Shown here piece by piece: positions 864 through 47,816 of a stretch of 64,000 nt of DNA (within the stretch, counting starts at the first letter, position 1; each line of letters starts with the position of its first letter). Source of the DNA: Hyphomicrobiales bacterium (lineage in GTDB: Bacteria; Pseudomonadota; Alphaproteobacteria; Rhizobiales; Methyloligellaceae). The position numbers and the translations under genes were made by a program. A model generated the notes under the pieces. That model worked only from the letters and a program-made list of their open reading frames with translations. It was not told where the DNA came from and made no database searches. Location of the stretch: positions 1 through 64,000 of the forward strand of contig JAJFHP010000040.1 in NCBI GenBank assembly GCA_021775555.1, given 5' to 3'.

Positions 864-1692
864 CTCTCAAACTTATCCCCGCCTGCCAAAACCTACTTTA
901 AACTCCGCCCTATCTCTTCCTCGCAACGGGATGCGGCTCGAGACCGTCTTGATCCGAGAGGCAAGAGAGCGGTTCCTGCTAAGACTCTTTGTCTGCGCCA
1001 CCGCCCTTTGGGCTACGTGAGCGCGGTTTGTGATTTACAAACCCCGTCCTCAAGCAGGCGATAGCCGGCAGGACAACTTAAGTGAGACGCCGGGCGGATT
1101 TCGACAAGAGGCTATCGTGCGGGCGCTGGAAGGCTGCCCTAAGATAATTGGATGCGCGGCCCTTCAGTGCTCCGCACAGTCCCTTGCGTGGGGATTAAAG
1201 CAACTCCCGGAACCCCATGGCTGCTGAACGAACAATGCTGCGCGGAAAGAGAGTGGCGACATGTGCAAGGTCTATTTTGCTCACGGCTATTCCTGCCTCC
1301 GGCAGGGCCTGCGCGGGCGCGCCTTTCTAGGCGGCGCCGTTCGGCCTTGCCTCGGCTACGCCTCGGGTACAGCGAGAAACGGAACTTCGTTGCTGTATTA
1401 TGCCAATCCAACCGTAGGGAGGCAGACCATTGAGGCCCGGCCGTTAGGCAGCCCGCGCGGAGGCCCGCGAAGCGGAACAGCCGTGAGCAAAAATAATCTG
1501 ATACAAAGCATCACCCTCAGACGACGGGTTCCTGTGGATTAATTCGTACCATGATGGTCCGGGCGCAAAACAGGTTGCGGCCTGGGTTGAGAACAGCCTA
1601 GGCTTGAGAGATAAAGACGCGCGCTATCATGATGTTGGCACAATTGTCAGCACTTGTTCCGCAGGAAACAAAATAAGACTTGGGAGGTCATC
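864..1692. other. Region without a convincing gene
   Basis: About 830 bases. Short open frames exist on both strands, but none has a ribosome binding site together with recognisable protein features. The stretch has several local hairpins (for example GGTTTGT/ACAAACC near 1025-1043 and CCTGCC/GGCAGG near 1292-1307) and the inverted-repeat element at 1274-1494. I checked it by eye for RNase P RNA, tmRNA and SRP RNA hallmarks and found none. Confidence 0.6.
1274..1494. repeat. MITE-like element with imperfect terminal inverted repeats
   Basis: The left end (1274-1293) and the reverse complement of the right end (1474-1494) share TTTTGCTCACGGCT, then differ at one base before TTCC. Similarity continues inward in a degraded form, with GC-rich GGGCCT and GCGCGGG blocks on both sides. 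The interior has no transposase. This suggests a non-autonomous mobile or repetitive element of about 220 bases. I saw no clear target-site duplication, so mobility is inferred. Confidence 0.5.
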
Positions 1693-2925
1693 GTGAACAG
1701 GTTTATCCAGCTGGCTATAACTCTCACATTCCTGTTCTCAGCACATCACGCCTCAGCAATGCCCTTTCCAAAATTCTTGTCCCCTGCCCCGGATGGATCA
1801 CTGGTCATTCAAGCCCAGGGCCTTCAGATCGGTGACAATGGCCTTCAAATCCAGCTTGGTGTTTCCGACGGCATGATCCTGAGTGTCCTGTCGCGAAACG
1901 GCTATAGCGATATCCGGATAACAAAGAAGAAACTGACCAAGGCAAACGCCGAGGCCTGCAAGAACGGAACGCGTTTCAAAGTGGAGATCAGCTTCGATGG
2001 CCGCATCCGCAAGGCGAAACGGATCGGCGATTGCCGCCCCGTGATCAACGCCGATATCGCGCGAAATATTCTCCGGAATAAAGGTTTCAGGAAAATCCAG
2101 CTGTCGCCCGATGGGGCAGGCTTCATTGCCGCTGCGTGCCGCAAAAACCGCCGTTTCAGGGTCAGGCTGGACCAGTTTGGCGATATCGCGGGCAAAAAGG
2201 TCCTCGGCCGGTGCGGCGGTTCCCTAACACAATATGACATCGCGGCTATTTTACGGACGCAAGGGTATAGCCGCATCCAGGCAAAACGGGTTCCCCGGGG
2301 CAATTTTTCCGTCCAGGCCTGCCGGGGTGACAACAGGTTCGAAATGCTGGTTGGCGATGATGGCGCTGTCCTGCGCGAGCGGCGGATCGGGCGCTGCGAT
2401 CCACCCATTCATCCCGCGACCATTCCCGCCGTGCTGGCCCGATACGGCTTCACGCGCATTGATGTCATCGACCGGAAACTGCCGCGCTATGTGGCCCATG
2501 CGTGCCGCGGCACCCAGCGGCTTGAGATCAGCATGAACCGCTTTGGCGAGATTGCCGATGAGAAATCAATCGGGCGCTGCGATCCGCCTCTAAGTGCCGC
2601 TGCACTGGAAGACCGGCTGCGCGGCATCGGATATGACACGGTTCGCATTGTGCGCGATGACGCCAGCGGATTTGTCGCAGAAGTTTGTGAAGAAGGCGCG
2701 CGCTTCCAGTTGCAATTGACCAGACATGGCGAAACCCTGAGCGAAAAGCGGGTGGGAGATTGCTCCTCACGACGCGTGAGGAAAATCCTGAAGCAACTTG
2801 AGAAGCAGGGCGTTCGCGACGCCAGGCTCTATGTCGATGGCTGCCGCAAGAACAAACGCGTCCGGATTATGCTTGACCAGTATGGCTCTGTTGTCAGGCG
2901 CAGTGTTATCGGCCCCTGCCGGTAA
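1693..2925 (+). CDS. Secreted protein of six tandem two-cysteine modules
   Basis: Predicted exported protein of 410 residues. I chose the GTG at 1693 because GGAGG sits five bases upstream and a clean signal peptide then starts at once (hydrophobic run to about residue 22, ending HASA-MP). After a linker, six modules of about 60 residues follow (about 61-114, 120-174, 180-235, 241-296, 301-357, 361-409). Each has the pattern GY/GF-x-x-I/V, basic strand, Cys, R/K-F, short strand, G, and a closing I/V/L-G-x-C. The two cysteines of a module are always 25 positions apart (89/114, 149/174, 210/235, 271/296, 332/357, 384/409), so each module probably has its own disulfide. The outline recalls PepSY-like folds, but I do not recognise the family. 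It is followed 48 bases later by another cysteine-patterned secreted protein. Confidence 0.75.
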   Translation: MNRFIQLAITLTFLFSAHHASAMPFPKFLSPAPDGSLVIQAQGLQIGDNGLQIQLGVSDGMILSVLSRNGYSDIRITKKKLTKANAEACKNGTRFKVEISFDGRIRKAKRIGDCRPVINADIARNILRNKGFRKIQLSPDGAGFIAAACRKNRRFRVRLDQFGDIAGKKVLGRCGGSLTQYDIAAILRTQGYSRIQAKRVPRGNFSVQACRGDNRFEMLVGDDGAVLRERRIGRCDPPIHPATIPAVLARYGFTRIDVIDRKLPRYVAHACRGTQRLEISMNRFGEIADEKSIGRCDPPLSAAALEDRLRGIGYDTVRIVRDDASGFVAEVCEEGARFQLQLTRHGETLSEKRVGDCSSRRVRKILKQLEKQGVRDARLYVDGCRKNKRVRIMLDQYGSVVRRSVIGPCR

Positions 2926-2973
2926 GATTTTTGGGGGAAAGTTGGTTGGTTCAAATCAGTATCGGAGATAGAC

Positions 2974-3303
2974 ATGCATCACATTGAAGGTTTCAGATCC
3001 CCCACGGTGTCCCGGTTCATATCGCACGCCATGCTGGCAGCTGTCCTGGCAGCACCCCTGTTGCTTGTCCCGGCGACCGCCAACGCCCAGGCAAAGCCGC
3101 TAACTGCACAGCAGGAAACAATGGTCCAGTGCCTGCTCCCCTGCAACAAGGGGGATGCGACCTGCCAGAATGGCTGCATACAGAATTCGCCCTCACCCGC
3201 CTATTCCACATGCGTCAAAACATGCGCCAACGCCACGGCGGCTCCGGGGCAACAACAAAGTCAGGCCAGTGATCTGAAGATTTGCGTTCAGGCCTGCAAT
3301 TAG
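2974..3303 (+). CDS. Small secreted protein with four CX3C motifs
   Basis: Predicted exported protein of 109 residues; I do not recognise a family. GGAG lies about eight bases before the ATG. A basic start and a hydrophobic stretch (about 19-34) end at ATANAQA, a good signal peptidase site near residue 38. The mature part has exactly eight cysteines, arranged as CLLPC (53-57), CQNGC (64-68), CVKTC (80-84) and CVQAC (104-108). Such spacing suits helical hairpins closed by disulfides, or metal binding. The gene follows the six-module protein in the same direction and may be co-transcribed with it. A later ATG (3031) would shorten the signal peptide and is less likely. Confidence 0.65.
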   Translation: MHHIEGFRSPTVSRFISHAMLAAVLAAPLLLVPATANAQAKPLTAQQETMVQCLLPCNKGDATCQNGCIQNSPSPAYSTCVKTCANATAAPGQQQSQASDLKICVQACN

Positions 3304-3368
3304 AGCCTGTTCAGGAAGCAGGGCCGGTTTAGAAAGCAGATTGAACCTGGTCTTGGTGTCGATGACCG

Positions 3369-3767
3369 CTAATCAGACTTCAGCTTCCGCGCCACGCGGG
3401 CATCGAACTTGGCAACATGAACAACCACGCGGTTGTGGGTGCCAGAGCCAATCTCCTCAATCTCGTCTTCAGCCCGCACCTTCAATTGCAGCTGGCGTCC
3501 ATCGACTTTCACCAGTTCTGCCGTGGCTGTCACTTTCATACCGACCGGAGTTGCGGCGATATGAGAGACATCGAGATGCGTGCCGAGGCTCTGCTGGCCC
3601 TCGGGCAAATGCGGATCGATGCAGGCAAGCGCAGCAGCCTCGATCACGTTGATCATCACCGGAGTCGCCAGCACGCCGACCTTGCCGCTACCGACGCTCT
3701 CGGCGGTATGCTCAGGGCCAACAACCAGTTCCGCTGTGCCTGTCAGGCCGGGTTTCAGTTCTGACAT
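3369..3767 (-). CDS. Hotdog-fold thioesterase (FlK-like)
   Basis: Predicted acyl-CoA thioesterase of 132 residues. The sequence has the hotdog layout of the fluoroacetyl-CoA thioesterase-like group: an N-terminal strand region ending in VGVLATP, a long central helix (VMINVIEAAALACI), and strands starting LGTHLDVSHIAATP and VGMKVTATAELV. The natural substrate cannot be read from sequence; members of this group often hydrolyse small acyl-CoAs. It begins three bases after the stop codon of the class IV aminotransferase, so the two are almost certainly one transcript. That suggests a shared role in amino acid or short-chain acyl-CoA turnover, which is inference. Confidence 0.75.
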   Translation of the reverse strand: MSELKPGLTGTAELVVGPEHTAESVGSGKVGVLATPVMINVIEAAALACIDPHLPEGQQSLGTHLDVSHIAATPVGMKVTATAELVKVDGRQLQLKVRAEDEIEEIGSGTHNRVVVHVAKFDARVARKLKSD

Positions 3768-4714: not shown

Positions 4715-5452
4715 TTATACCCCAACCCGCCCGAAGCCCGGGACCTTGAGGGCGGGGTGGCGAAAATCTATCCCGATGACGGCGCCGAGAATATTAATCT
4801 CGAACCCTTCGACCCAGGCGAGCGTCAGGCCGGTATATCCGCCGAATGAAATTCGAAAGCCGGTCCCTGAAGGCGTGATGGAGAACCAGCGCCCATCGGT
4901 GGGAAAGTCCTTGCCGATGGCTGTGGGTGGCAGGGTGGCGGCAAGCTCCGGGATATTGGCAAGGACCGAGGCTATGAAGGTGTTGGAGTTTGGCCCGGGC
5001 CAGACGCGATAATCGCCGCGGTCAGTATAGACGTAGTTGGCAATACCGGCACGGATCATCGGAATCAACCGATCGGCGTCTTGACCACGCACCTCATGCA
5101 CAACCCGGGGGTCATTGCCATACCAGCGCCCGTCCGGGGCGTAATTGTTACGGCGAACGGGATGTCCCCATCCAACCTTGTCCCAACGCTCATAGGCGGT
5201 TGCCCCCTCTTCTTTCAGCACGATCCAGCTGTGGGTGGCGAACACGCCTTTCCAGCGACCGGTCCGCGCGGAATAAATACGGACCATCGCCGGCTTGCTC
5301 CGGGAGGCAGGTGGAAGCGTTCGGGTGCTGGACCAGTTGGCCGTAGCCCAGCTTGAGGGATGAGCCTTGCTCCACCAATGCGCAGCATGAAGCCCGAGCG
5401 GCGTTACCACCATGAGCAGAAAAGCTAAAATGAACATTTTGAGGAATCGCAC
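4715..5452 (-). CDS. DUF3750 family protein, probably exported
   Basis: Protein of about 245 residues whose central part matches my recollection of DUF3750: THSWIVLKE, YERWDKVGWGHPV, then PGPNSNTF and LPPTAIGKDF. The function of the family is unknown; the His, Cys-free SxT-rich core and the PGPNSNTF motif recall papain-like or NlpC-type hydrolases, but that is only a guess. I prefer the GTG at 5452: it has AGG upstream and yields a basic start (MRFLK) followed by a hydrophobic segment, as in a signal peptide or membrane anchor. ATG 5437 would remove the basic residues; ATG 5512 adds an unlikely N-terminus. No operon partner is evident. Confidence 0.65.
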   Translation of the reverse strand: MRFLKMFILAFLLMVVTPLGLHAAHWWSKAHPSSWATANWSSTRTLPPASRSKPAMVRIYSARTGRWKGVFATHSWIVLKEEGATAYERWDKVGWGHPVRRNNYAPDGRWYGNDPRVVHEVRGQDADRLIPMIRAGIANYVYTDRGDYRVWPGPNSNTFIASVLANIPELAATLPPTAIGKDFPTDGRWFSITPSGTGFRISFGGYTGLTLAWVEGFEINILGAVIGIDFRHPALKVPGFGRVGV

Positions 5453-38392: not shown

Positions 38393-41300
38393 CTAGGCTT
38401 TTCCGGTGAGCGTGTCCGCATCGGCAAGCTCTTCAGCCAGCGCCTCTGTTGCAAGTCCGCGCGGCCGCACCCAGCCGGCGATCAGCACATAAAGCGCCGG
38501 GGTCAGGAAGAGCGTAAACACGGCTGCCAGACCGAGCCCGCCGAACACCACCCAGCCGATTGCCGCGCGCGATTCCACACCTGGCCCACTCCCCAGGATA
38601 AGCGGCAACCCTGCCAGCACCGTCGAAACCATGGTCATGAAAATTGGACGCACGCGAACCAGTGAGGCTTCGCGCACGGCATTGGCGACGCTCATGCCCC
38701 TATCGCGAAGCTGGTCCGCAAACTCAACCATCAGGATCGAGTTCTTGGCCATGATGCCGATCAGCATCAACACGCCGATCTGGCTGTAAATATTGATGGT
38801 CGTACCTGTCAGAGCCAGTGCGAAGATGGCAGCGCACACGCCAAACGGGACGGTCAGCAGCACGACAAGTGCGGAGGTCACGCTCTCGAACTGGGCCACG
38901 AGCACCAGGAAGACGACGAGCAATGCGACTAAATATGTAATGACGATCCCTTTTGATGTCTCATCTAGCTCGGCGGCCTCATTCAGAAACAGAAGTCCGA
39001 TCCCGGGAGGAAGTTCCTTATGCGCCAACGCCCGTACGGCATCGACGGCCTCGCGCAGGGTAAAACCTTCCACAGGATCAGCATCGACTTCGATGGCGCG
39101 GCGCTGCCCGTGCCTGTCCAGCTCGGCAGCCACCGCGTTTTCCTTGAAAGTAACGAGTTGAGACAATGGAACCAGTCGTCCGCCAGAAGCACCAACGTAG
39201 AGCTTGCGCAAATCAGACGGATTGGAAACCGTCCCCTCTATCGCCTGAAGGATAATTGGGACAGTCTGGTCATCGACCGTGAGTTCCGCCACCTCGTCAT
39301 TATCAACCAGCACTTGAATCGTTGAGGCCAGATTGTCGATCGATACACCAAGATCGGTGGCGCGACGGCGGTTTATGTTTACAGAAAGCTGCGGCTGGGT
39401 GGCCCGGAACTCGACGCGGATACCCTGCAGTTGAGGAATTTCGCGCTCCATTGCAAGCACGAAAGCATCGGTCGCTTCGAGGATCTTAGTGTAATTTGAT
39501 CCTGTCAGGGCAAACTTCAGCCCACCGCTCGCATTACGCAAACCCAATGAATTAGTGCGAACGATGCGGCCCTGGGCACCGGGAATTTGCCGGACCGGTT
39601 TGTTCAGGGTCCTGGCTATTTCACTTTCAGTTTTGCTGCGCTCGGCCCAATCCCGGAGAGGGGCGCTTATCCAGCCACGATTCAAATCGTAGTAGCCGGT
39701 AATGGTGAACAGGTCGGTAATAGTCCCCTCGTCCACGAGTGGGCGCAGGATATTTTCCACATGTTCAACCTGCTTGTCGGTATATTCCAGGCCCGTGCCA
39801 TCAGGGCCTGTCAGCCGGACGGTGAGGATGCCCCGATCTTCATCAGGAACCAGCTCTTCGCCGAGCGTGCCAAATACAACAGCCGCGGCCATGATAACAA
39901 TGGCGCAACCTCCCACCAGAACCAGAGGTGCCGCCAGAACAGCATCAAGCCCTCTGGCATAGGTGCGTTTGAAAATGCCGAATTTTTCCTTCGTTTTTCC
40001 TGCCGCCACTTTCTTTGGAACTGCCTTGTCGGGAAGCTTCGAGGCCATCATCGGACAGAGTGTGAGTGCCACGAATGAGGAAATGGTCACTGTAACCGCA
40101 AGCACAAACCCGAATTCGGTAAAGAGCCGTCCTGCAGTTGAGGGCAGGAATGAAATGGGCAGGAACACTGAAATGAGAGTGGCCGTTGTAGCGACAACTG
40201 CGAAAAAAACCTGCCGTGTGCCAATAACGGCAGCGGCCCGCGAGGCAATACCTTCAGCACGACGGCGCTGAATGTTCTCCAGCACCACGATGGCATCATC
40301 AACCACCAGTCCCGCGGCCAGAACAAGGGCAAGCAGGGTAATCAGGTTGATGGAGAATCCCAGCAGCCAGATGGCAGCTACCGTACCAATCAGTGCGATA
40401 GGTATCGTTGCAGCGGGAATAAGTGCCGCCCTGAGCTGCCCGACAAAGAGCGCAATCACCGTTATGACGATGGCAACCGCCAACCCAAGGGAGATCAGGA
40501 CTTCGCGGATCGCCCCTTCGATGAATTTTGAATCATCCGATGTGGTCTGGATTGTCAAATCCTTGAACCGGGCATTCATCTGACCGACCACCCGATTGAT
40601 GCCCCTTGCGATCGATACAGTGTTGGACTGCGCCTGACGCACGATGCCAAGATTGATTACCGTACGGCCATTGAGCCGGACGTAATTGACCGGGTCCGCC
40701 GGACCGAAAGAAGCTGTCGCCAGGTCGCCAATGCGTACCGGATCACGAACGATCAACTCCTCTATTTCCTTCGGATTGGTAACGGAAGCATTGGCGCGCA
40801 CCAGAACTTCCTGGCGGTCGGACTTGAAGCTGCCGGCGGGTACATCATAGCGGGCATTTTTTAGGACATTCACCACGTCGGCTACGGAGAGCTTGTAGCT
40901 GGCAAGTTTCATGGGATCGATCACAACACGAAGCACACGTTCACGATCGCCAAACAAAACAATGTCCGCAACCCCCTCAACAGACATGAGTTCAGGAACC
41001 ACCTCATCCTCGACCTTACGGGTTATGTCTTCGATGGTGAGCTGGTCGCTATAGGCGGAAAGCCGAATTATGGGGCGCGCATCGGCATCCGCCTTGATGA
41101 CGAAAATATCCTCGACACCATCAGGTAACTCACGCTCTACCCTGCTCACCGCCTCGCGCACATCGTTGGCGGCGTCGATCAGGTTCACAGAGGGGCTGAA
41201 CTCGACACGGATTCTGAAATTGTCTTCTTCGCTTGAAGACCGCACCGCCTTCACGCCGTTAACACGCGCAACAGCGCCCTCCACGCGCGAAGTGATTTCC

Positions 41301-41497
41301 GCATCGATGGTTTCAGGAGAACCGCCGGGATAGTTGGCCCGCACCGTCACGATCGGCCGGTCGATGTCGGGAAGCTCTCGCACCTCGACACCGAAAATGG
41401 CGGAAATACCGGCAATGATGATCAGCAGGTTGATGACGCCGGCGAGATAGGGACGGCGTACGCTTAAAGCCGGGAGATCGTTGGCGGGGGCGGACAT
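38393..41497 (-). CDS. RND efflux pump inner-membrane subunit
   Basis: Proton-driven exporter of the hydrophobe/amphiphile efflux family, 1034 residues from ATG 41497. It has the 12-helix plan with two large periplasmic loops. The proton-relay aspartates lie in LAAGLVVDDAIVVLENIQRR (about 405-425) and the partner lysine in GIMAKNSILMVEFADQL. PGGSPETIDAEIT near residue 55 is another family mark. The start codon lies one base after the stop codon of the adaptor gene, so the pair is coupled. No outer-membrane channel gene or regulator lies here, so it probably uses a shared TolC-type channel. Substrates are unknown. Confidence 0.92.
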   Translation of the reverse strand: MSAPANDLPALSVRRPYLAGVINLLIIIAGISAIFGVEVRELPDIDRPIVTVRANYPGGSPETIDAEITSRVEGAVARVNGVKAVRSSSEEDNFRIRVEFSPSVNLIDAANDVREAVSRVERELPDGVEDIFVIKADADARPIIRLSAYSDQLTIEDITRKVEDEVVPELMSVEGVADIVLFGDRERVLRVVIDPMKLASYKLSVADVVNVLKNARYDVPAGSFKSDRQEVLVRANASVTNPKEIEELIVRDPVRIGDLATASFGPADPVNYVRLNGRTVINLGIVRQAQSNTVSIARGINRVVGQMNARFKDLTIQTTSDDSKFIEGAIREVLISLGLAVAIVITVIALFVGQLRAALIPAATIPIALIGTVAAIWLLGFSINLITLLALVLAAGLVVDDAIVVLENIQRRRAEGIASRAAAVIGTRQVFFAVVATTATLISVFLPISFLPSTAGRLFTEFGFVLAVTVTISSFVALTLCPMMASKLPDKAVPKKVAAGKTKEKFGIFKRTYARGLDAVLAAPLVLVGGCAIVIMAAAVVFGTLGEELVPDEDRGILTVRLTGPDGTGLEYTDKQVEHVENILRPLVDEGTITDLFTITGYYDLNRGWISAPLRDWAERSKTESEIARTLNKPVRQIPGAQGRIVRTNSLGLRNASGGLKFALTGSNYTKILEATDAFVLAMEREIPQLQGIRVEFRATQPQLSVNINRRRATDLGVSIDNLASTIQVLVDNDEVAELTVDDQTVPIILQAIEGTVSNPSDLRKLYVGASGGRLVPLSQLVTFKENAVAAELDRHGQRRAIEVDADPVEGFTLREAVDAVRALAHKELPPGIGLLFLNEAAELDETSKGIVITYLVALLVVFLVLVAQFESVTSALVVLLTVPFGVCAAIFALALTGTTINIYSQIGVLMLIGIMAKNSILMVEFADQLRDRGMSVANAVREASLVRVRPIFMTMVSTVLAGLPLILGSGPGVESRAAIGWVVFGGLGLAAVFTLFLTPALYVLIAGWVRPRGLATEALAEELADADTLTGKA

Positions 41498-41498
41498 G

Positions 41499-42662
41499 CT
41501 AGCTTCCGGGTGCTGGGGCAGGCATTGAAAATTGGACATGCCGCCCCGGGCGCAATCTCTGCACGCCTTCGACAACGACCAGATCGCCCTTCGAAATATT
41601 GCCGTCTATCAGGATTATGCTGTTCAGCCGCTTCACGGAACGCACAACCACTTTTTCGGCCTTGTTCTCGCGTACGCGCCACACATAACTTACCCCCTTG
41701 CGCCACTGGAGCGCCAGTTCGTGCACCGCAGGGTAAGTCTTGCCCGGAATCGTAAGATCGACCACGAAGGACAGGCCGGGTCGCAGCAAATCTTCCTTGT
41801 TGGGGATATTGGCGCGCACAATCACAGTGCGCGAGGTCGGGTCAATACGGCTGTCGATATCTTCGATCACACCCTCGAACTCGCGCCCCCGGAAACTCGG
41901 CGTTTGCGCGGCGACCTTCTGGCCGATGACCAGTTGTGAGAGAAACTGCTCAGCGACTTCAAACTCGACAATCAACTGGCTGCGGTCATCCAGCGTGACG
42001 ACGGATGTGCTCGGTGAAATGCGGTCCCCGAGCTCAACCTTAGAAATGCCGACAACGCCATCGAACGGGGCTTTCATTTCGCGGTCCGCCAACGCCTCTT
42101 CAGCCTGCTGCAACTCAAGCTCTGCGCGGTCCACCAGATTGCTGGCGTCATCCACATTGGCCTGCGAATTGATGTTTTTCTTGAGCAGTTGTTCAGAACG
42201 CTGCATCAGCCGGTCGGCCTCGATGAGCCGTGTCCTGGCGACCTTGACGGCCAGTTCCGCATCGCGTGAATCGAGCCGCAATATCGGCTGCCCTTTCGAT
42301 ACGCGCCCTCCGGCGCGTGCAAAGACGTGGCGAATTTCGCCAGTGGCTTCGGGATACAGCATGACAGAGCGCCGCGCCCGTCCCGTCCCGATTGCGCCAA
42401 CGATCATATCATTTGCGCGTTCTTGCGCGGGGGCGACAACAACGGGCACCGAGCGCTGCTTTTTACCCTTGCCCGTTTTGGTGCCTTCTACTGTTCCGCT
42501 GAATCCGGCGAACACCTTGGAGACCTGATCGCGGCCGGTCCACAGCATGACAGCGGCTCCCAGCAGCACCAGAAGCAGGACAAGCTGGATTCCACCTGCA
42601 AGTTGCCTCCTGGCCGGTTCGGGTGTTTTTCTGGACTTCGCTCGAGCGCGCCGTTGTGCCAT
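41499..42662 (-). CDS. RND efflux periplasmic adaptor (membrane fusion protein)
   Basis: 387 residues. An N-terminal anchor (GGIQLVLLLVLLGAAVMLW) follows a basic, alanine- and arginine-rich start. Then come the lipoyl half-motifs (GEIRHVFARAGGRVSKGQPILRLD in two halves around a coiled-coil hairpin at about 150-200, with MKAPFDGVVGISKVELGDRI), a beta-barrel domain, and the membrane-proximal domain. It joins the inner-membrane pump to an outer-membrane channel. It is the first gene of the pump operon. Confidence 0.9.
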   Translation of the reverse strand: MAQRRARAKSRKTPEPARRQLAGGIQLVLLLVLLGAAVMLWTGRDQVSKVFAGFSGTVEGTKTGKGKKQRSVPVVVAPAQERANDMIVGAIGTGRARRSVMLYPEATGEIRHVFARAGGRVSKGQPILRLDSRDAELAVKVARTRLIEADRLMQRSEQLLKKNINSQANVDDASNLVDRAELELQQAEEALADREMKAPFDGVVGISKVELGDRISPSTSVVTLDDRSQLIVEFEVAEQFLSQLVIGQKVAAQTPSFRGREFEGVIEDIDSRIDPTSRTVIVRANIPNKEDLLRPGLSFVVDLTIPGKTYPAVHELALQWRKGVSYVWRVRENKAEKVVVRSVKRLNSIILIDGNISKGDLVVVEGVQRLRPGRHVQFSMPAPAPGS

Positions 42663-42847: not shown

Positions 42848-43258
42848 CTAGACGACGTCAAAGGCCCGCAACACAGCCGCACCCCATACCAGGCCAGCCA
42901 GGGCAAGCGTGAAAAACACGCCTGCTGATGCATAGTCCTTGGTAATGCCAATCGCCTCGTGCCTGTCAGGGTGAAGATGATCGCACAGTTCCTCGATAGC
43001 GCTGTTGAGAAATTCAACCGCCAGCACGGCCAGCAAGCTGGCGATGAGTGCCACCCACGTCCACAGGCTGTCGGCAATAAAGAACGAAACCGGAAGTGCC
43101 ATTGCCAGAACCGCCATTTCCTGCTGGATGGCCGCCTCGGTGCGCAAGCCTGCGCGAAGCCCGTTCATGGTGTTCTTCATAGCACCCATGATGCGCATCA
43201 GACCGCCTTTGCCAGTAACGCCCGATTGCTGTTTTTCCTGGGATTGCTTTGCGCTCAT
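42848..43258 (-). CDS. dgkA: Diacylglycerol kinase
   Basis: Small inner-membrane enzyme that phosphorylates diacylglycerol for lipid recycling. 136 residues from ATG 43258, which has GGCGGGG upstream. Three membrane segments follow an amphipathic helix; NTMNGLRAGLRTEAAIQQE and LAVEFLNSAIEELCDHL carry the conserved Glu and Asn of the active site. The N-terminal 22 residues are an extension. It is transcribed alone, divergent from the sigma factor operon. Confidence 0.93.
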   Translation of the reverse strand: MSAKQSQEKQQSGVTGKGGLMRIMGAMKNTMNGLRAGLRTEAAIQQEMAVLAMALPVSFFIADSLWTWVALIASLLAVLAVEFLNSAIEELCDHLHPDRHEAIGITKDYASAGVFFTLALAGLVWGAAVLRAFDVV

Positions 43259-43418
43259 TATTTTACCCCGCCTCTGTTCTGGCATGATGACCAAAGTTTG
43301 AATCTATAAGACAGGTTTACGGAACGGTCTAATGGAGTATTCATTTTGCTAAGCTATGATCTCTGGTCGCAGCCATATCGCGTGGTCTAGGGTCAAAAAA
43401 TTATTTTTGCAGGCCTCA

Positions 43419-43481: not shown

Positions 43482-44045
43482 ATGACGAATACGGACCCTG
43501 ACCGGGACCTGATTTCACGAACAGCCGCGAAAGATCGCGCGGCGATGCACGCCCTTTTTGCGCGCCATAATGTTCGGGTTTTCAGATTTCTCATGGGCCG
43601 GGTCAGGAACGAGGCAATAGCCGAGGAACTGACCAGTGAAGTGTTCCTCGATGTCTGGCGGCTTGCCGGCCGCTATGAGGGACGCGCCGCGGTGACTACA
43701 TGGCTGCTGGCCATTGCCAACAACAAAGCCATGAGCCTGCTGCGGAAGAAACGTGAAGATGAACTGGAGGACGAACTCGCAGAGCAAGTGGAGGACGACG
43801 GCGACGACCCTGAGGAGAGCGAACAGAAGCGCTCCAAGGCGGAGCTGATGCGCGAGACCATTAACGCCCTGTCACATGAACATCGCGAGGTCATCGACCT
43901 TGTGTATTACCACGAGAAGTCCGTCAAAGAGGTTGCCGAGATCACCGGCATCCCCGAAGCGACGGTGAAGACGAGAATGCATTATGCCCGAAAAGCTTTG
44001 GGCGAATTGATGAAACAGGCAGGAATTGATCGAGGTTGGCCATGA
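43482..44045 (+). CDS. ECF-family RNA polymerase sigma factor
   Basis: 187 residues with sigma region 2 (MHALFARHNVRVFRFLMGRV ... SEVFLDVWRLAGRYEGRAAV, then TTWLLAIANNKA) and region 4 (INALSHEHREVIDLVYYHEK ... ITGIPEATVKTRMHYARKAL), linked by a strongly acidic stretch (EDELEDELAEQVEDDGDD) that is unusually long. CGGAG precedes the ATG. The TGA stop overlaps the ATG of the anti-sigma gene (ATGA), the standard coupling. A matching promoter lies upstream, so autoregulation is likely. The acidic linker could lie over the DNA channel and is worth noting. Confidence 0.93.
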   Translation: MTNTDPDRDLISRTAAKDRAAMHALFARHNVRVFRFLMGRVRNEAIAEELTSEVFLDVWRLAGRYEGRAAVTTWLLAIANNKAMSLLRKKREDELEDELAEQVEDDGDDPEESEQKRSKAELMRETINALSHEHREVIDLVYYHEKSVKEVAEITGIPEATVKTRMHYARKALGELMKQAGIDRGWP

Positions 44046-44734
44046 GCAATACCGAGAACCAGATGACAGAGCGCGAGGCCATTGAAGCCATGCTGCCCTG
44101 GTATGAGAGCGGCCAGCTCGACACGCAGGACAAAGCCCGTGTCGAGGCCTACCTCTCCTCCCATCCCGATATGGCGAGCCAGCTTTCCTTGGTGGAAGAA
44201 GAGCGTATCGAAACGGTTCAGATGAACGAGGCACGAGGCGCACCAAGTGCCGGCGCGCTTGATCGGCTGATGGCATCGATCGAGGAACATGAAGTGTCTA
44301 ATCCTTCATTTGCAAGCACCAGGACGGCGGTTTGGGGCTGGGCCTCGAAGTTGCTGGGCGCGCCCGTTCCTGCAAGCCTGCAATGGGTGGCGGCAGCCGC
44401 CGCCGTTCTGATCGTCGTGCAGGGTGTATCACTGGGCGTGCTTATGACCTCCGGTGTTCCGCAAGGCCCTGCCTATGAGACCGCATCTGGTCCGGGTCAG
44501 GCAGCAGCGCAGGGAAGCTTTGCCCTGGTGCAATTTAACGAGAGCGCCCGCGCTGAAGAGATCAGCGGAATCTTGACGCAAATGGGCTTTACTATTGTCG
44601 ATGGGCCAAAGCCCGGCGGTGTCTACAAAATCCGCATTTCCGACAAGGTTCTGGAAGATGCTAAACGCGACACTATATTGAAGGAATTGCTGGCGAAGCA
44701 GAACCTGATCTCATTTGCGGTCCCGGCGGAGTAA
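44042..44734 (+). CDS. Membrane anti-sigma factor with periplasmic domain
   Basis: 230 residues. The cytosolic part (about 1-110) has MLPWYESGQLDTQDKARVEA, like anti-sigma domains, but without the His/Cys zinc ligands. One transmembrane helix follows (about 113-136, WVAAAAAVLIVVQGVSLGVL). The periplasmic part (about 150-230) contains ALVQFNESARAEEISGIL, MGFTIVDGPKPGGVYKIRI and LLAKQNLISFAVP. That pattern (strand, helix, strand with G, strand, helix, strand) resembles the prodomain of subtilisin-like proteases, including the one in the next gene. It probably holds the sigma factor until a periplasmic event releases it. Confidence 0.85.
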   Translation: MSNTENQMTEREAIEAMLPWYESGQLDTQDKARVEAYLSSHPDMASQLSLVEEERIETVQMNEARGAPSAGALDRLMASIEEHEVSNPSFASTRTAVWGWASKLLGAPVPASLQWVAAAAAVLIVVQGVSLGVLMTSGVPQGPAYETASGPGQAAAQGSFALVQFNESARAEEISGILTQMGFTIVDGPKPGGVYKIRISDKVLEDAKRDTILKELLAKQNLISFAVPAE

Positions 44735-44740
44735 TCTTTG

Positions 44741-46294
44741 ATGACGAGCTGGACAAAAACTCCAGAACTGCGAGGACTTGCCGCCCTGTTCGTCGCGCTC
44801 GCGATCATGGCCCTGAGCCACGATACGCTTCGAGCACAAACAACGCTGAAAAACACCCAGACAACAAAGCCCGGCAAGACTCTGGTTTTTCCGGGCATCA
44901 CCAAGACCCCGAGCCGGGTCACGCCTTCAATCACCGGACGCACGCCTACGGTCAAGTGGCCGACCTACCAGCCACGGCCTAAAACACCCACGGTCAAATG
45001 GCCGACTTACCAGCCGCGGCCCAAAACGCCCACGGTCAAATGGCCGACCTATCAACCGCGGCCCAAGACGCCCAAATATGTCACGCCCAAGCCAAAGAAG
45101 CCCAAGGTCACCACGGCCAAGCGCCCGCCGCGGCGGCCCACAGGCCTGGCGGTTATTCAGCCGATCCCGCAATTCATCGCCAATCAAGTCGTGGTCCTGT
45201 TCGACGGGCTCGAGAGCGATGGCGTGGATGATGCGCTGGCGCAATCGCTTGGGCTGACGAAACTCTCTTCTGTGGCCAATAGCCTGCTCGATGGGCGCAT
45301 CGTCACATTCTCGATCCCCGGCAACCGTCAGTTGCCGCAGGTCATCGCCGCCCTGACATCTGATCCGCGTGTGAGCCTGGCCCAGCCGAACAATATCTAC
45401 CTCACCGTGGGCCAGAAGAACCATGCGGCCAAGCCGTCCGCGCAATATTCACTCACCAAGCTCTCCGTTGAGCCGGTGCACAAGACGACCCAGGGGCGCA
45501 ATGTGCCGGTGGCCGTAATTGATACCGGCATTGATGTGTCCCATCCCGTGCTCTCAAAGTCAGTGGCCCTGTCCTTTGATGCGGTTGGCAATGGCCCGCC
45601 AAAGGTTCAGCAGCACGGTACCGCGATAGCGGGACTGATCGCGGGTAAGGGCAAAGTCAAAGGCGTCGCACCGCTCTCCAACCTGCTGGCTGTACGAGCC
45701 TTCTATATGCACCCGGTCTACAAGCGCCCCGTCACCAGCAGCGCCATCTTGTTGCGTGCGCTGGACTGGTCATTCGTCAACAAGGCGCGGATTTTCAATC
45801 TGAGCTTCGCTGGCCCCTACGATCCACTGGTGAAAGCCGCACTCACATCTGCGTCAAACAAGGGCGTTATCCTCGTGGCCGCCGCCGGCAATGGCGGGTC
45901 GAAAGCCGCACCGGCCTACCCGGCCGCTTATGAGAATGTCATCGCCATTACCGCGCTTGACCACAAGGACAAGCTCTACGCCCACGCCAATCGGGGCAAC
46001 TACCTGACGGTTGCAGCACCGGGCGTCGATGTACTCGTGCCCACGCTGAAGCGGGGCTATCGCTATTCATCCGGCACATCGCTTGCCGCGGCCCATATCA
46101 GCGGCCTCGTTGCCCTGCTGCTGGAGCGCCACCCGGAAGCGAGCGCTAAACAGATTCTCGACGCCATTCGAAACAGTGCCCACGACCTAGGTCCCAAGGG
46201 TCACGATGTCCAGTTTGGCGCCGGTCGGGCGGACGCGCATGCGTCACTCCTGTCCATGAGCAACAACGCGGTCAAGTTGACCAGCGATCAGTAG
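44741..46294 (+). CDS. Secreted subtilisin-like serine protease (S8)
   Basis: 517 residues from ATG 44741 (GGCGGAG upstream). Parts: signal peptide (to about 32), a Pro/Lys-rich linker with three copies of a 14-residue unit TPTVKWPTYQPRPK (about 68-109), a prodomain-like region (about 146-222, VVVLFDGLESDGVDDAL ... ALTSDPRVSLAQPNNIYL), and the catalytic domain with Asp261 in AVIDTGIDVSHP, His292 in QQHGTAIAGLIAG, the oxyanion Asn384 in AAGNGG and Ser447 in SSGTSLAAAHISG. All catalytic residues are present. Third gene of the sigma operon, 6 bases after the anti-sigma gene. Confidence 0.9.
   Translation: MTSWTKTPELRGLAALFVALAIMALSHDTLRAQTTLKNTQTTKPGKTLVFPGITKTPSRVTPSITGRTPTVKWPTYQPRPKTPTVKWPTYQPRPKTPTVKWPTYQPRPKTPKYVTPKPKKPKVTTAKRPPRRPTGLAVIQPIPQFIANQVVVLFDGLESDGVDDALAQSLGLTKLSSVANSLLDGRIVTFSIPGNRQLPQVIAALTSDPRVSLAQPNNIYLTVGQKNHAAKPSAQYSLTKLSVEPVHKTTQGRNVPVAVIDTGIDVSHPVLSKSVALSFDAVGNGPPKVQQHGTAIAGLIAGKGKVKGVAPLSNLLAVRAFYMHPVYKRPVTSSAILLRALDWSFVNKARIFNLSFAGPYDPLVKAALTSASNKGVILVAAAGNGGSKAAPAYPAAYENVIAITALDHKDKLYAHANRGNYLTVAAPGVDVLVPTLKRGYRYSSGTSLAAAHISGLVALLLERHPEASAKQILDAIRNSAHDLGPKGHDVQFGAGRADAHASLLSMSNNAVKLTSDQ
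44942..45067 (+). repeat. Three tandem 42-base repeats inside the protease gene
   Basis: Units at 44942-44983, 44984-45025 and 45026-45067 differ from each other at only a few third positions and encode the linker unit TPTVKWPTYQPRPK. They keep the reading frame, so copy-number change by slippage would alter linker length without disrupting the gene. Confidence 0.9.
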
Positions 46295-46361: not shown

Positions 46362-46387
46362 TGAACCTTTCTCCGTACCGCTGCGAC
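46362..46387 (+). promoter_or_regulatory. Putative ECF sigma promoter before the secreted protein gene
   Basis: TGAAC, 17 bases, CGAC, then CAAAG. It matches the element at 43419-43444 in both boxes, in spacing and in several spacer and downstream bases. The gene starts 71 bases after the CGAC. Confidence 0.65.
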
Positions 46388-46457
46388 CAAAGCTATGAGA
46401 CGCGCGGGGCCTGATGGCGCATGCGCAAAACAAATTTTAAAATTACGGAGAAAGACT

Positions 46458-47816
46458 ATGTTGAATGTAACGAAACAGACCGCGAGCGCGGTCCTAAAAG
46501 GAGTGACCATGACAGCCCTGCTGTCTGGTGTGCTCGCCACTACCGCCTATGCCGAGGACGCCAAAATCAAGTCGGCCTCATTCTCGATCCAGCCGATCTA
46601 TCAGGCAGACGAGATCGTCGTCACATCGAGCGATGGCAAAAAATGGGACAAAATTGACTCTAAAGCCCTGCAACTGTCTGCCACCATGAAGGTGGATACA
46701 AAACACCCGGGTTACGTAGATCGTATTGGTGTGTTTTTGGGTGCATGCAACAACACGCAATGCGTCAACAGGCCAAAAATGTTCAGCGAAACCATCAATA
46801 CGCGCGATGTAAGCCTGAACAGGAAAATAACATTCGCCGGCAGCAAGTTCCCGGTCTCTACCACCGGCATCGCGCTTCCCAGCTACGGGGATGAGATCCT
46901 GAAAGGGTGCAACTCGAAATTAACGTCCGATGGCGCGACAAAATCCCATTCATTTTCAAAACTCATGACCGCCTCCTTTTCAGCAAACACGAGAAAGAAG
47001 AGCGGCCAACTCCCCATTACAGAAGTGTCAGAGCCTGGCGAGTATCCGGAATTTGGCGGCGGTGATGTCACCCGGCAGGACCAGTTTGCCGTGAAGATCA
47101 CCTGCAAGCCATACGTGGCGCCGCCGATGGTGCTGAAACATACAAATTTTTGGGTGGGTATAGCTCATCCAAAAGCGTGCCCCAGAAAGGCTTCGGTTTC
47201 GGCCGAATTTTTTACTGATAAGGCGGGAAAAATTGAGTTCATGTTTGTCCGCAATGATGGCGCCAATCAGAAGATAACGGTTAATGCCACAAAACAAAAT
47301 GGAGAATTCAGAGCCTTCTGGAGCAAGGAATACCTCTTCTCCAAATCAGTGGACCGCAAATATATGATCTCCACTTTCGGCCATAAATACAGCTCCGAAT
47401 GGAAGCCAATGGTCATCAAATGTGGTGTTCAGAACGACGCGCCGGGTGCAGGTGGCAAGACGGATGTCCCGAACCCGACCCATGGCAATCCGAACGATCG
47501 GCCCCAGGTCATCGTGACGCCGAAGCCGCCGAAGCGACCCGTCAAGCCCGGCATCAAGGTTGCCCCCTTGCCGAAAGTCGTCTGTATCGGCGGCAAGATC
47601 TCCAAGAACAGCTGCTTCTGCCCGGCCAGGACGAAGAAGATGAAATTTGGGTCCAATAAATATCGTTGCCTGAACAGCGTCGTGAAGCCGAAATTACCAC
47701 CCAAGCGGGTTGCACCGAAGCGGATTGCACCGAAGGCCCAAATCAAGCGGGTCGCGCCCACCAGGGCAAGAGTTCTGATTGGTAAGAAGCGCAGGTCTTC
47801 AGCGCTTGCTCGATAA
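46458..47816 (+). CDS. Secreted protein with C-terminal Cys motif and basic tail
   Basis: 452 residues from ATG 46458, which has GGAGAAAG upstream. A signal peptide ends near TAYAED (about 33). The central part (about 35-330) is rich in strands with cysteines at intervals (GACNNTQC, KITCKP, HPKACPRK, VIKCGV). A Pro/Lys-rich segment leads to VCIGGKISKNSCFCP ... YRCL (about 384-418), a CxGG-CxC-C pattern I recall from exported proteins of Hyphomicrobiales, and then a basic tail (RVAPKRIAPKAQIKRVAPTR). No known family. It has its own copy of the sigma promoter and could be a substrate or partner of the protease; that is inference. Confidence 0.75.
   Translation: MLNVTKQTASAVLKGVTMTALLSGVLATTAYAEDAKIKSASFSIQPIYQADEIVVTSSDGKKWDKIDSKALQLSATMKVDTKHPGYVDRIGVFLGACNNTQCVNRPKMFSETINTRDVSLNRKITFAGSKFPVSTTGIALPSYGDEILKGCNSKLTSDGATKSHSFSKLMTASFSANTRKKSGQLPITEVSEPGEYPEFGGGDVTRQDQFAVKITCKPYVAPPMVLKHTNFWVGIAHPKACPRKASVSAEFFTDKAGKIEFMFVRNDGANQKITVNATKQNGEFRAFWSKEYLFSKSVDRKYMISTFGHKYSSEWKPMVIKCGVQNDAPGAGGKTDVPNPTHGNPNDRPQVIVTPKPPKRPVKPGIKVAPLPKVVCIGGKISKNSCFCPARTKKMKFGSNKYRCLNSVVKPKLPPKRVAPKRIAPKAQIKRVAPTRARVLIGKKRRSSALAR

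Follow-up and report, generated by a model that had tools for sequence, protein, structure and literature searches.

For many anti-sigma factors the protease that initiates the proteolytic cascade is unknown, and a locus in an alphaproteobacterial genome raises the question of what a subtilisin-family (S8) serine protease does beside an anti-sigma factor whose periplasmic domain looks like the prodomain of that same protease. The locus lies in a stretch of 64,000 nucleotides from a Hyphomicrobiales bacterium (assembly GCA_021775555.1, contig JAJFHP010000040.1, positions 1 to 64,000 of the forward strand; hereafter the window), where three genes on the + strand code for an extracytoplasmic function (ECF) sigma factor, a membrane anti-sigma factor, whose gene overlaps that of the sigma factor, and an exported S8 protease. 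The anti-sigma factor is composed of a cytoplasmic anti-sigma part, one hydrophobic (transmembrane) segment and a C-terminal periplasmic prodomain-like domain of ~75 residues, and the protease of a signal peptide (identified by eye), a Pro/Lys-rich repeat linker, a prodomain and a catalytic domain. The sigma factor belongs to the PRK12515 subfamily of NCBIfam (267.7 bits, above the curated cut-off of 236), and the protease to the S8 family on the basis of its PF00082 match (156.5 bits, cut-off 21.8) and its Asp-His-Ser triad. Taken together, the data point to a protease-operated sigma switch that we did not find in the literature searched.

Resemblance of the periplasmic domain to an S8 prodomain

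A close relative of the locus, L033, comes from a Hyphomicrobiales metagenome-assembled genome and is identical to the window in 94% of positions in the sigma factor, 86% in the anti-sigma factor and 81% in the protease. We assembled profiles of 61 anti-sigma domains and the matching prodomains from L033 and 60 regions from genomes of the order, and compared the two with hhalign. The resulting alignment, displayed with L033 as the master sequence, covers 63 columns and spans most of the length of the anti-sigma domain, with a probability of 86% (91% in the reverse direction) and a score of 31.5. Against this, 300 column-shuffled prodomain profiles scored 9.6 on average (standard deviation 1.9, maximum 17.9), the reversed prodomain profile scored 11.2 and, among 60 real windows taken from the three proteins, those outside the domain and the prodomain reached at most 19.5. 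The original prediction had matched ALVQF with VVVLF, MGFTIVDGP with LGLTKLSSV and LISFAVP with VSLAQPN within a shared order of strands and helices, and these pairs recur in the same register in the hhalign alignment, well above the controls.

Furthermore, when 62 domain sequences, the window's own included, were searched against Pfam-A, the commonest match was PF22148, an S8 prodomain family (Fervidolysin_NPro-like), which was recovered, mostly weakly, by 19 of the 62 at E <=10, with no other family matching more than 7; at E 5e-4 the counts were 4 for PF22148 and 2 for SPOR. The window's anti-sigma domain stays below the curated PF22148 cut-off of 21 bits, which is passed by that of a distant relative with a zinc-finger type anti-sigma factor (L173, 24.7 bits), and none of 10 RskA-type control anti-sigma factors matched the family. 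The anti-sigma profile also picks up an S8 prodomain region, that of a protease from a distant genome (L181, E 9e-4), a match to which we give little weight because four serine hydroxymethyltransferases (L177-L180, named by eye) score about as well.

AlphaFold2 models, computed as single chains from two-row alignments (window and L033), show an E-H-E-E-H-H-E succession of strands (E) and helices (H) in the anti-sigma domain, with a predicted local distance difference test score (pLDDT) of 75.7, and E-H-E-E-H-E in the protease prodomain (pLDDT 61.3). The former is thus a beta-alpha-beta-beta-alpha-beta fold with its second helix in two pieces, and the same order of elements that had been expected of both segments was obtained from prediction. 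A Foldseek search of the PDB with the anti-sigma model placed prosegments at its head, the top three being a pro-subtilisin, a subtilisin prosegment and the ASP chaperone ORF2 (E 0.005-0.015). We conclude that the resemblance of the anti-sigma domain to the protease prodomain is real. Plain chance likeness of a common fold was considered as the sole explanation and is ruled out by the shuffles, the real decoy windows and the Pfam ranking.

A conserved three-gene module and its predicted promoter

We then examined the neighborhoods of homologous anti-sigma genes. Of 249 genomes sampled from the order, 70 have matches, the own genome being one of them, as do some genomes from other parts of the class and phylum; a search of viral contigs gave no relatives. 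With one matched genome (G128) left out of the neighbor analysis, 83 anti-sigma loci with the domain were available besides the window, two of which (L130 and L151) are pieces of a single locus. An S8 protease adjoins the anti-sigma gene in all 80 testable loci, the remaining three (L040, L052 and L054) ending at a contig end. It lies downstream on the same strand in 73, upstream on the same strand in 5 and on the opposite strand in 2, at a distance of no more than 1.7 kb. A phylum-wide search of other genomes added ten loci, nine with the protease and one (in genome G806) without it, and five further profile matches that are not anti-sigma genes. Overall, the protease stands beside the anti-sigma gene in 89 of 90 testable loci despite changes in order and strand. 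In at least two distant genomes (L173 and L175) the cytoplasmic part is of a zinc-finger type, with the domain and the protease still together. By comparison, only one (L209) of 28 control loci has an S8 protease in the flanks searched (up to 1.5 kb), giving p of about 1e-24 by the Fisher test against 80/80; the controls derive from 30 NF052375 anti-sigma loci in 61 genomes of the order, after removal of L210 and L211 as members of the same family. At L153, where a sigma factor of the same subfamily occurs without this anti-sigma factor, there is likewise no S8 match. Based on these observations, the sigma factor, anti-sigma factor and S8 protease are one conserved three-gene module.

The proteases retain their catalytic residues, with Asp in 79/79, His in 79/79 and Ser in 77/77 of the covering sequences among the 80; the oxyanion Asn falls in its alignment column in 76 of 80, and of the remaining four, three are incomplete and one, L093, shows an alignment slip. 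The candidate explanation that they are pseudoproteases was ruled out by this conservation.

Several individual loci differ in their particulars. In the more distant relative Methylocapsa polymorpha, whose anti-sigma factor is 31% identical to that of the window, the trio (strain RX1; WP_318655059.1, WP_318655061.1 and WP_318655062.1) is borne on plasmid pRX1 (L137), with transposase genes nearby and with the protease gene placed upstream of that for sigma. The G806 locus (L234, 1876-6768) contains a diverged sigma factor and a second open reading frame (4948-5451) that matches the domain weakly, and a caspase-like gene (by eye) lies about 2 kb upstream. At L209 (genome G036, 1195-3428), a divergent S8 protease gene with a prodomain stands beside a different type of anti-sigma factor, which has a weak zf-HC2 match below the cut-off and was negative in the search for the prodomain-like domain; this is perhaps a second sigma-subtilase arrangement.

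The module is also associated with a sequence motif. The pattern TGAAC-N-TTT-N13-CGAC-N-AA, searched with seven spacings allowed, has 11 sites in the own genome, all with a single spacing, and none for the reversed-pattern control; a variant with one mismatch has 14 (control 1). The window has two copies, one preceding the sigma gene and the other the gene at 46458. With up to one mismatch, sites were present in all 15 genomes hand-chosen from the 70 (54 in total, control 3) and in none of 10 chosen from the unmatched genomes of the order (control 4). Thirteen of the trio genomes have sequence upstream of the sigma gene: eight carry a site with at most one mismatch 34-53 bases before the first matched sigma residue, and in the other five the best upstream match has 4-5 mismatches and lies 37-54 bases before that residue. 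Of 20 sites in five of these genomes, 14 lie no more than 100 bases ahead of a gene with a product that starts like an exported protein (by eye). On this evidence, the motif is predicted to act as promoter both for the sigma operon and for further genes, most of whose products are by eye exported.

Possible roles of the domain: docking, inhibition and others

In the propeptide of subtilisin BPN', about ten residues separate the position aligned with beta-4 from the P1 residue in the active site. After beta-4, the anti-sigma domain has only 5 residues in the window and L033, at most 7 in 68 of the 83 homologues, 8 in 3 and 9 or more in 12. The window's domain hence lacks the active-site-reaching C-terminal tail of an S8 prodomain or I9 inhibitor, and in VIA the last residue of its model aligns with residue 373 of the propeptide 1scj_B, which ends at 377. 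The linker that joins the membrane to the domain varies, with the exception of a single motif, aromatic-x-Thr-Ala-Ser with Tyr or Phe first, which 74 of 83 homologues have in a relaxed form when read by alignment column. When the residues after the hydrophobic segment were scanned alignment-free, the relaxed motif was recovered in 73 of 83 members versus 2 of the 25 controls (out of 28) that were readable, and the strict form [YF]xTAS in 44 of 83 versus 0 of 25. The idea that this motif copies the processing site of the protease was dropped, as conservation is poor at the junction that follows the prodomain and the bond that is cut there is not known.

The absent tail speaks against classical prodomain inhibition and mildly favors docking with cleavage. 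In light of the short tail and the conserved linker motif, we therefore favor a docking domain with a cuttable linker over a plug, and posit, tentatively and with rather less than even confidence, that a dedicated site-1 protease docks on the domain and then cleaves the linker. In such a scheme the three genes would form one envelope signaling module, in which the anti-sigma domain would be recognized by the protease as its prodomain is. Because the domain is without the tail that fills the active site, the docked enzyme would keep its active site open and could cleave the flexible linker that leads from the membrane to the domain, with the conserved motif as the likeliest place. This site-1 cut would be followed by intramembrane cleavage by an M50 (site-2, RseP-type) protease, for which the genome has one match (PF02163, 224.9 bits), and the sigma factor thereby released would raise expression of its own operon and of the exported regulon. 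The signal might be any event that releases the protease, either from exported substrates or from its own prodomain.

Alternatively, the domain might bind the protease in the manner of a free prodomain or an I9-type inhibitor, keeping it inactive at the membrane. We regard this as unlikely, since in most members the domain stops about five residues before the prodomain P1 position (judged by the BPN' propeptide), 1scj_B is aligned only to residue 373 and the protease retains a full prodomain of its own. It has in its favor that the Foldseek neighbors POIA1 (1v5i_B, rank 16) and ORF2 (3wqb_B, rank 3) are separately encoded partners of S8 proteases, and that ORF2 is considered in PMC5638518 to be a temporary inhibitor of ASP. 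The protease would then be the output of the pathway, with destruction of the anti-sigma factor by other proteases freeing both it and the sigma factor. The original prediction had held that the protease could be inhibited by the anti-sigma factor or could cleave it: the prodomain likeness and the dedicated partnership underlying that relation are borne out by hhalign, Pfam and gene neighborhoods, whereas classical inhibition is disfavored by the tail missing from most homologues. Less probable still, the domain could be a membrane-bound folding helper, with the sigma factor reporting the folding of the protease or other exported proteins. The predicted regulon of exported proteins and the precedent of ORF2 acting for ASP (PMC5638518) would be in keeping with such a maturation checkpoint, but the protease here has its own prodomain, whereas ASP is propeptide-deficient according to the title of a reference in the same source.

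Returning to docking, a number of observations weigh against it, and some of these would fit the domain never contacting the protease, being instead a ferredoxin-like sensor, for example SPOR-like and glycan binding, perhaps descended from a prodomain, with the protease merely an effector from the same operon. The predicted fold is the very common ferredoxin-like one, which weakens the prodomain reading; the prodomains, at VIA Z 6.6-6.9, are tied with unrelated ferredoxin-like folds, the Foldseek matches of the domain are weak (best E 0.0047), and the list for the protease prodomain model is generic, with the best S8 prodomain at rank 5. In the window itself, the domain has no match at E 10 to any Pfam family, PF22148 included, a sequence-profile search of the PDB with the domain found no subtilase, and at E 5e-4 or better SPOR is matched by 2 of the 62 domain sequences against 4 for PF22148. 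A distance-matrix comparison over 73 of the 83 loci (10 dropped for missing or short parts) revealed no special coupling between domain and catalytic domain, the correlation with the protease being higher for the cytoplasmic part (0.475) than for the domain (0.274), and the G806 locus has the domain with no S8 protease within about 6 kb. In addition, the 12 members with longer tails might reach an active site, the relaxed linker motif is missing from 9 of 83 homologues, and the motif could serve a purpose other than cleavage. Nevertheless, the association of the domain with S8 proteases persists through changes in gene order, strand and even the cytoplasmic part (the zinc-finger type), and is nearly absent from the control anti-sigma loci; hence we consider a role without contact improbable.

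Other features of the locus and comparison with known systems

The features of the locus are collected below. In the protease linker, between the signal peptide and the prodomain (window 44945-45075), an in-frame repeat of ~42 bases, TVKWPTYQPRPKTP, occurs three times, and the length and composition of this linker vary greatly among the relatives compared. The protein encoded at the second promoter copy has a Lys/Pro-rich, Cys-containing C-terminus and zero Pfam matches, and among the loci compared only L033 has a full-length relative of it. Upstream of the trio, the - strand codes for a large membrane protein resembling resistance-nodulation-division (RND) efflux pumps and a smaller partner like a membrane-fusion protein (38393-42662, both by eye), adjoined by a diacylglycerol kinase gene (42848-43294, Pfam DAGK_prokar).

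Table. Features of the sigma, anti-sigma and S8 protease locus, in window coordinates
Feature	Position	Strand	Basis
Predicted sigma-operon promoter, TGAAC-C/T-TTT-N13-CGAC-N-AA	43419..43447	+	Genome motif scan
ECF sigma gene	43482..44045	+	PRK12515 (NCBIfam) 267.7 bits, cut-off 236; Pfam Sigma70_r2 and r4_2
Membrane anti-sigma gene	44042..44734	+	Weak NCBIfam anti-sigma matches (39 bits, cut-off 100); gene position
Juxtamembrane motif YETASG, candidate cleavage or recognition site	44474..44491	+	Relaxed pattern in 74/83 homologues
Prodomain-like periplasmic domain, without active-site tail	44510..44731	+	hhalign and controls; Pfam PF22148 in relatives; AlphaFold; Foldseek
Exported S8 (subtilisin-family) serine protease gene	44741..46294	+	Pfam Peptidase_S8 156.5 bits
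Protease prodomain	45170..45391	+	Pfam Fervidolysin_NPro-like 22.0 bits, cut-off 21, residues 144-217; AlphaFold model
Second promoter-motif copy	46362..46390	+	Genome motif scan; upstream of gene at 46458
Exported protein (by eye), function unassigned, predicted sigma regulon member	46458..47816	+	Promoter motif upstream

Among the matches listed in the open-access literature searched, which included PMC8999054, PMC7593790, PMC8103513, PMC7406223, PMC3420878 and PMC5638518, there was no S8 site-1 protease and no prodomain-like anti-sigma factor, in agreement with the original prediction, which knew of no described system of this arrangement. The 2021 ECF reclassification lies outside that set and may list the gene neighborhood, for which reason we confine the claim of novelty to the mechanism, within the literature searched. 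The site-1 proteases named as identified in PMC7593790 include DegS, DegP, SipS, SipT and Prc, none of them S8. One close parallel is the RseA-DegS-RseP pathway of sigma-E, which has, as here, an ECF sigma factor, a single-pass anti-sigma factor, a periplasmic serine protease and an M50 protease in the genome, and whose site-1/site-2 logic, as outlined there, is paralleled by our proposal. DegS is an S1 protease with a PDZ domain, whereas the protease here is S8 and encoded beside an anti-sigma factor that bears a prodomain-like domain. A subtilase is also among the genes near the sigma factor in ECF54, discussed in PMC8999054 as being without an anti-sigma factor, while the trio described here was found through its anti-sigma factor. 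The ASP-ORF2 pair of Aeromonas sobria (PMC5638518; 3wqb) similarly joins an S8 protease to a separate partner from an adjacent gene, but there the C-terminal region of ORF2 lies at the active site and ORF2 is no anti-sigma factor, whereas in our locus the domain is tail-less and the protease comes with a prodomain of its own.

The subtilisin propeptide and POIA1, both I9 inhibitors, share the order of strands and helices with the domain (Foldseek first and rank 16), which differs from them in lacking, in most members, the active-site tail and in being anchored to the membrane as part of an anti-sigma factor. RskA-type anti-sigma factors (PF10099) are weakly similar to that of the window in the cytoplasmic and transmembrane part (NF052375, 39.1 bits against a cut-off of 100; no PF10099 match at E 1). 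The latter has the prodomain-like domain in place of RskA_C, and the controls show the strict linker motif in 0 of 25 and an S8 neighbor in 1 of 28.

If docking is indeed its role, a prodomain-type fold would have been turned into a recruitment module for signaling. The sequence by itself yields the identity of the protease, a promoter, a motif that is a candidate for cleavage and a predicted regulon, and the question is therefore directly testable. It is conceivable, though we lean slightly the other way, that this is a widespread bacterial sigma switch in which a dedicated subtilase makes the site-1 cut and is brought to its substrate by a prodomain mimic that the substrate carries and that lacks the tail. 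In the eukaryotic site-1/site-2 pathway, a subtilase acts as the site-1 protease and is followed by an M50 site-2 protease. Should the docking proposal hold, the order of proteases would be alike in the two and the substrates different, and the bacterial switch might then, with the same reserve, be viewed as a counterpart of the eukaryotic pathway in its logic.

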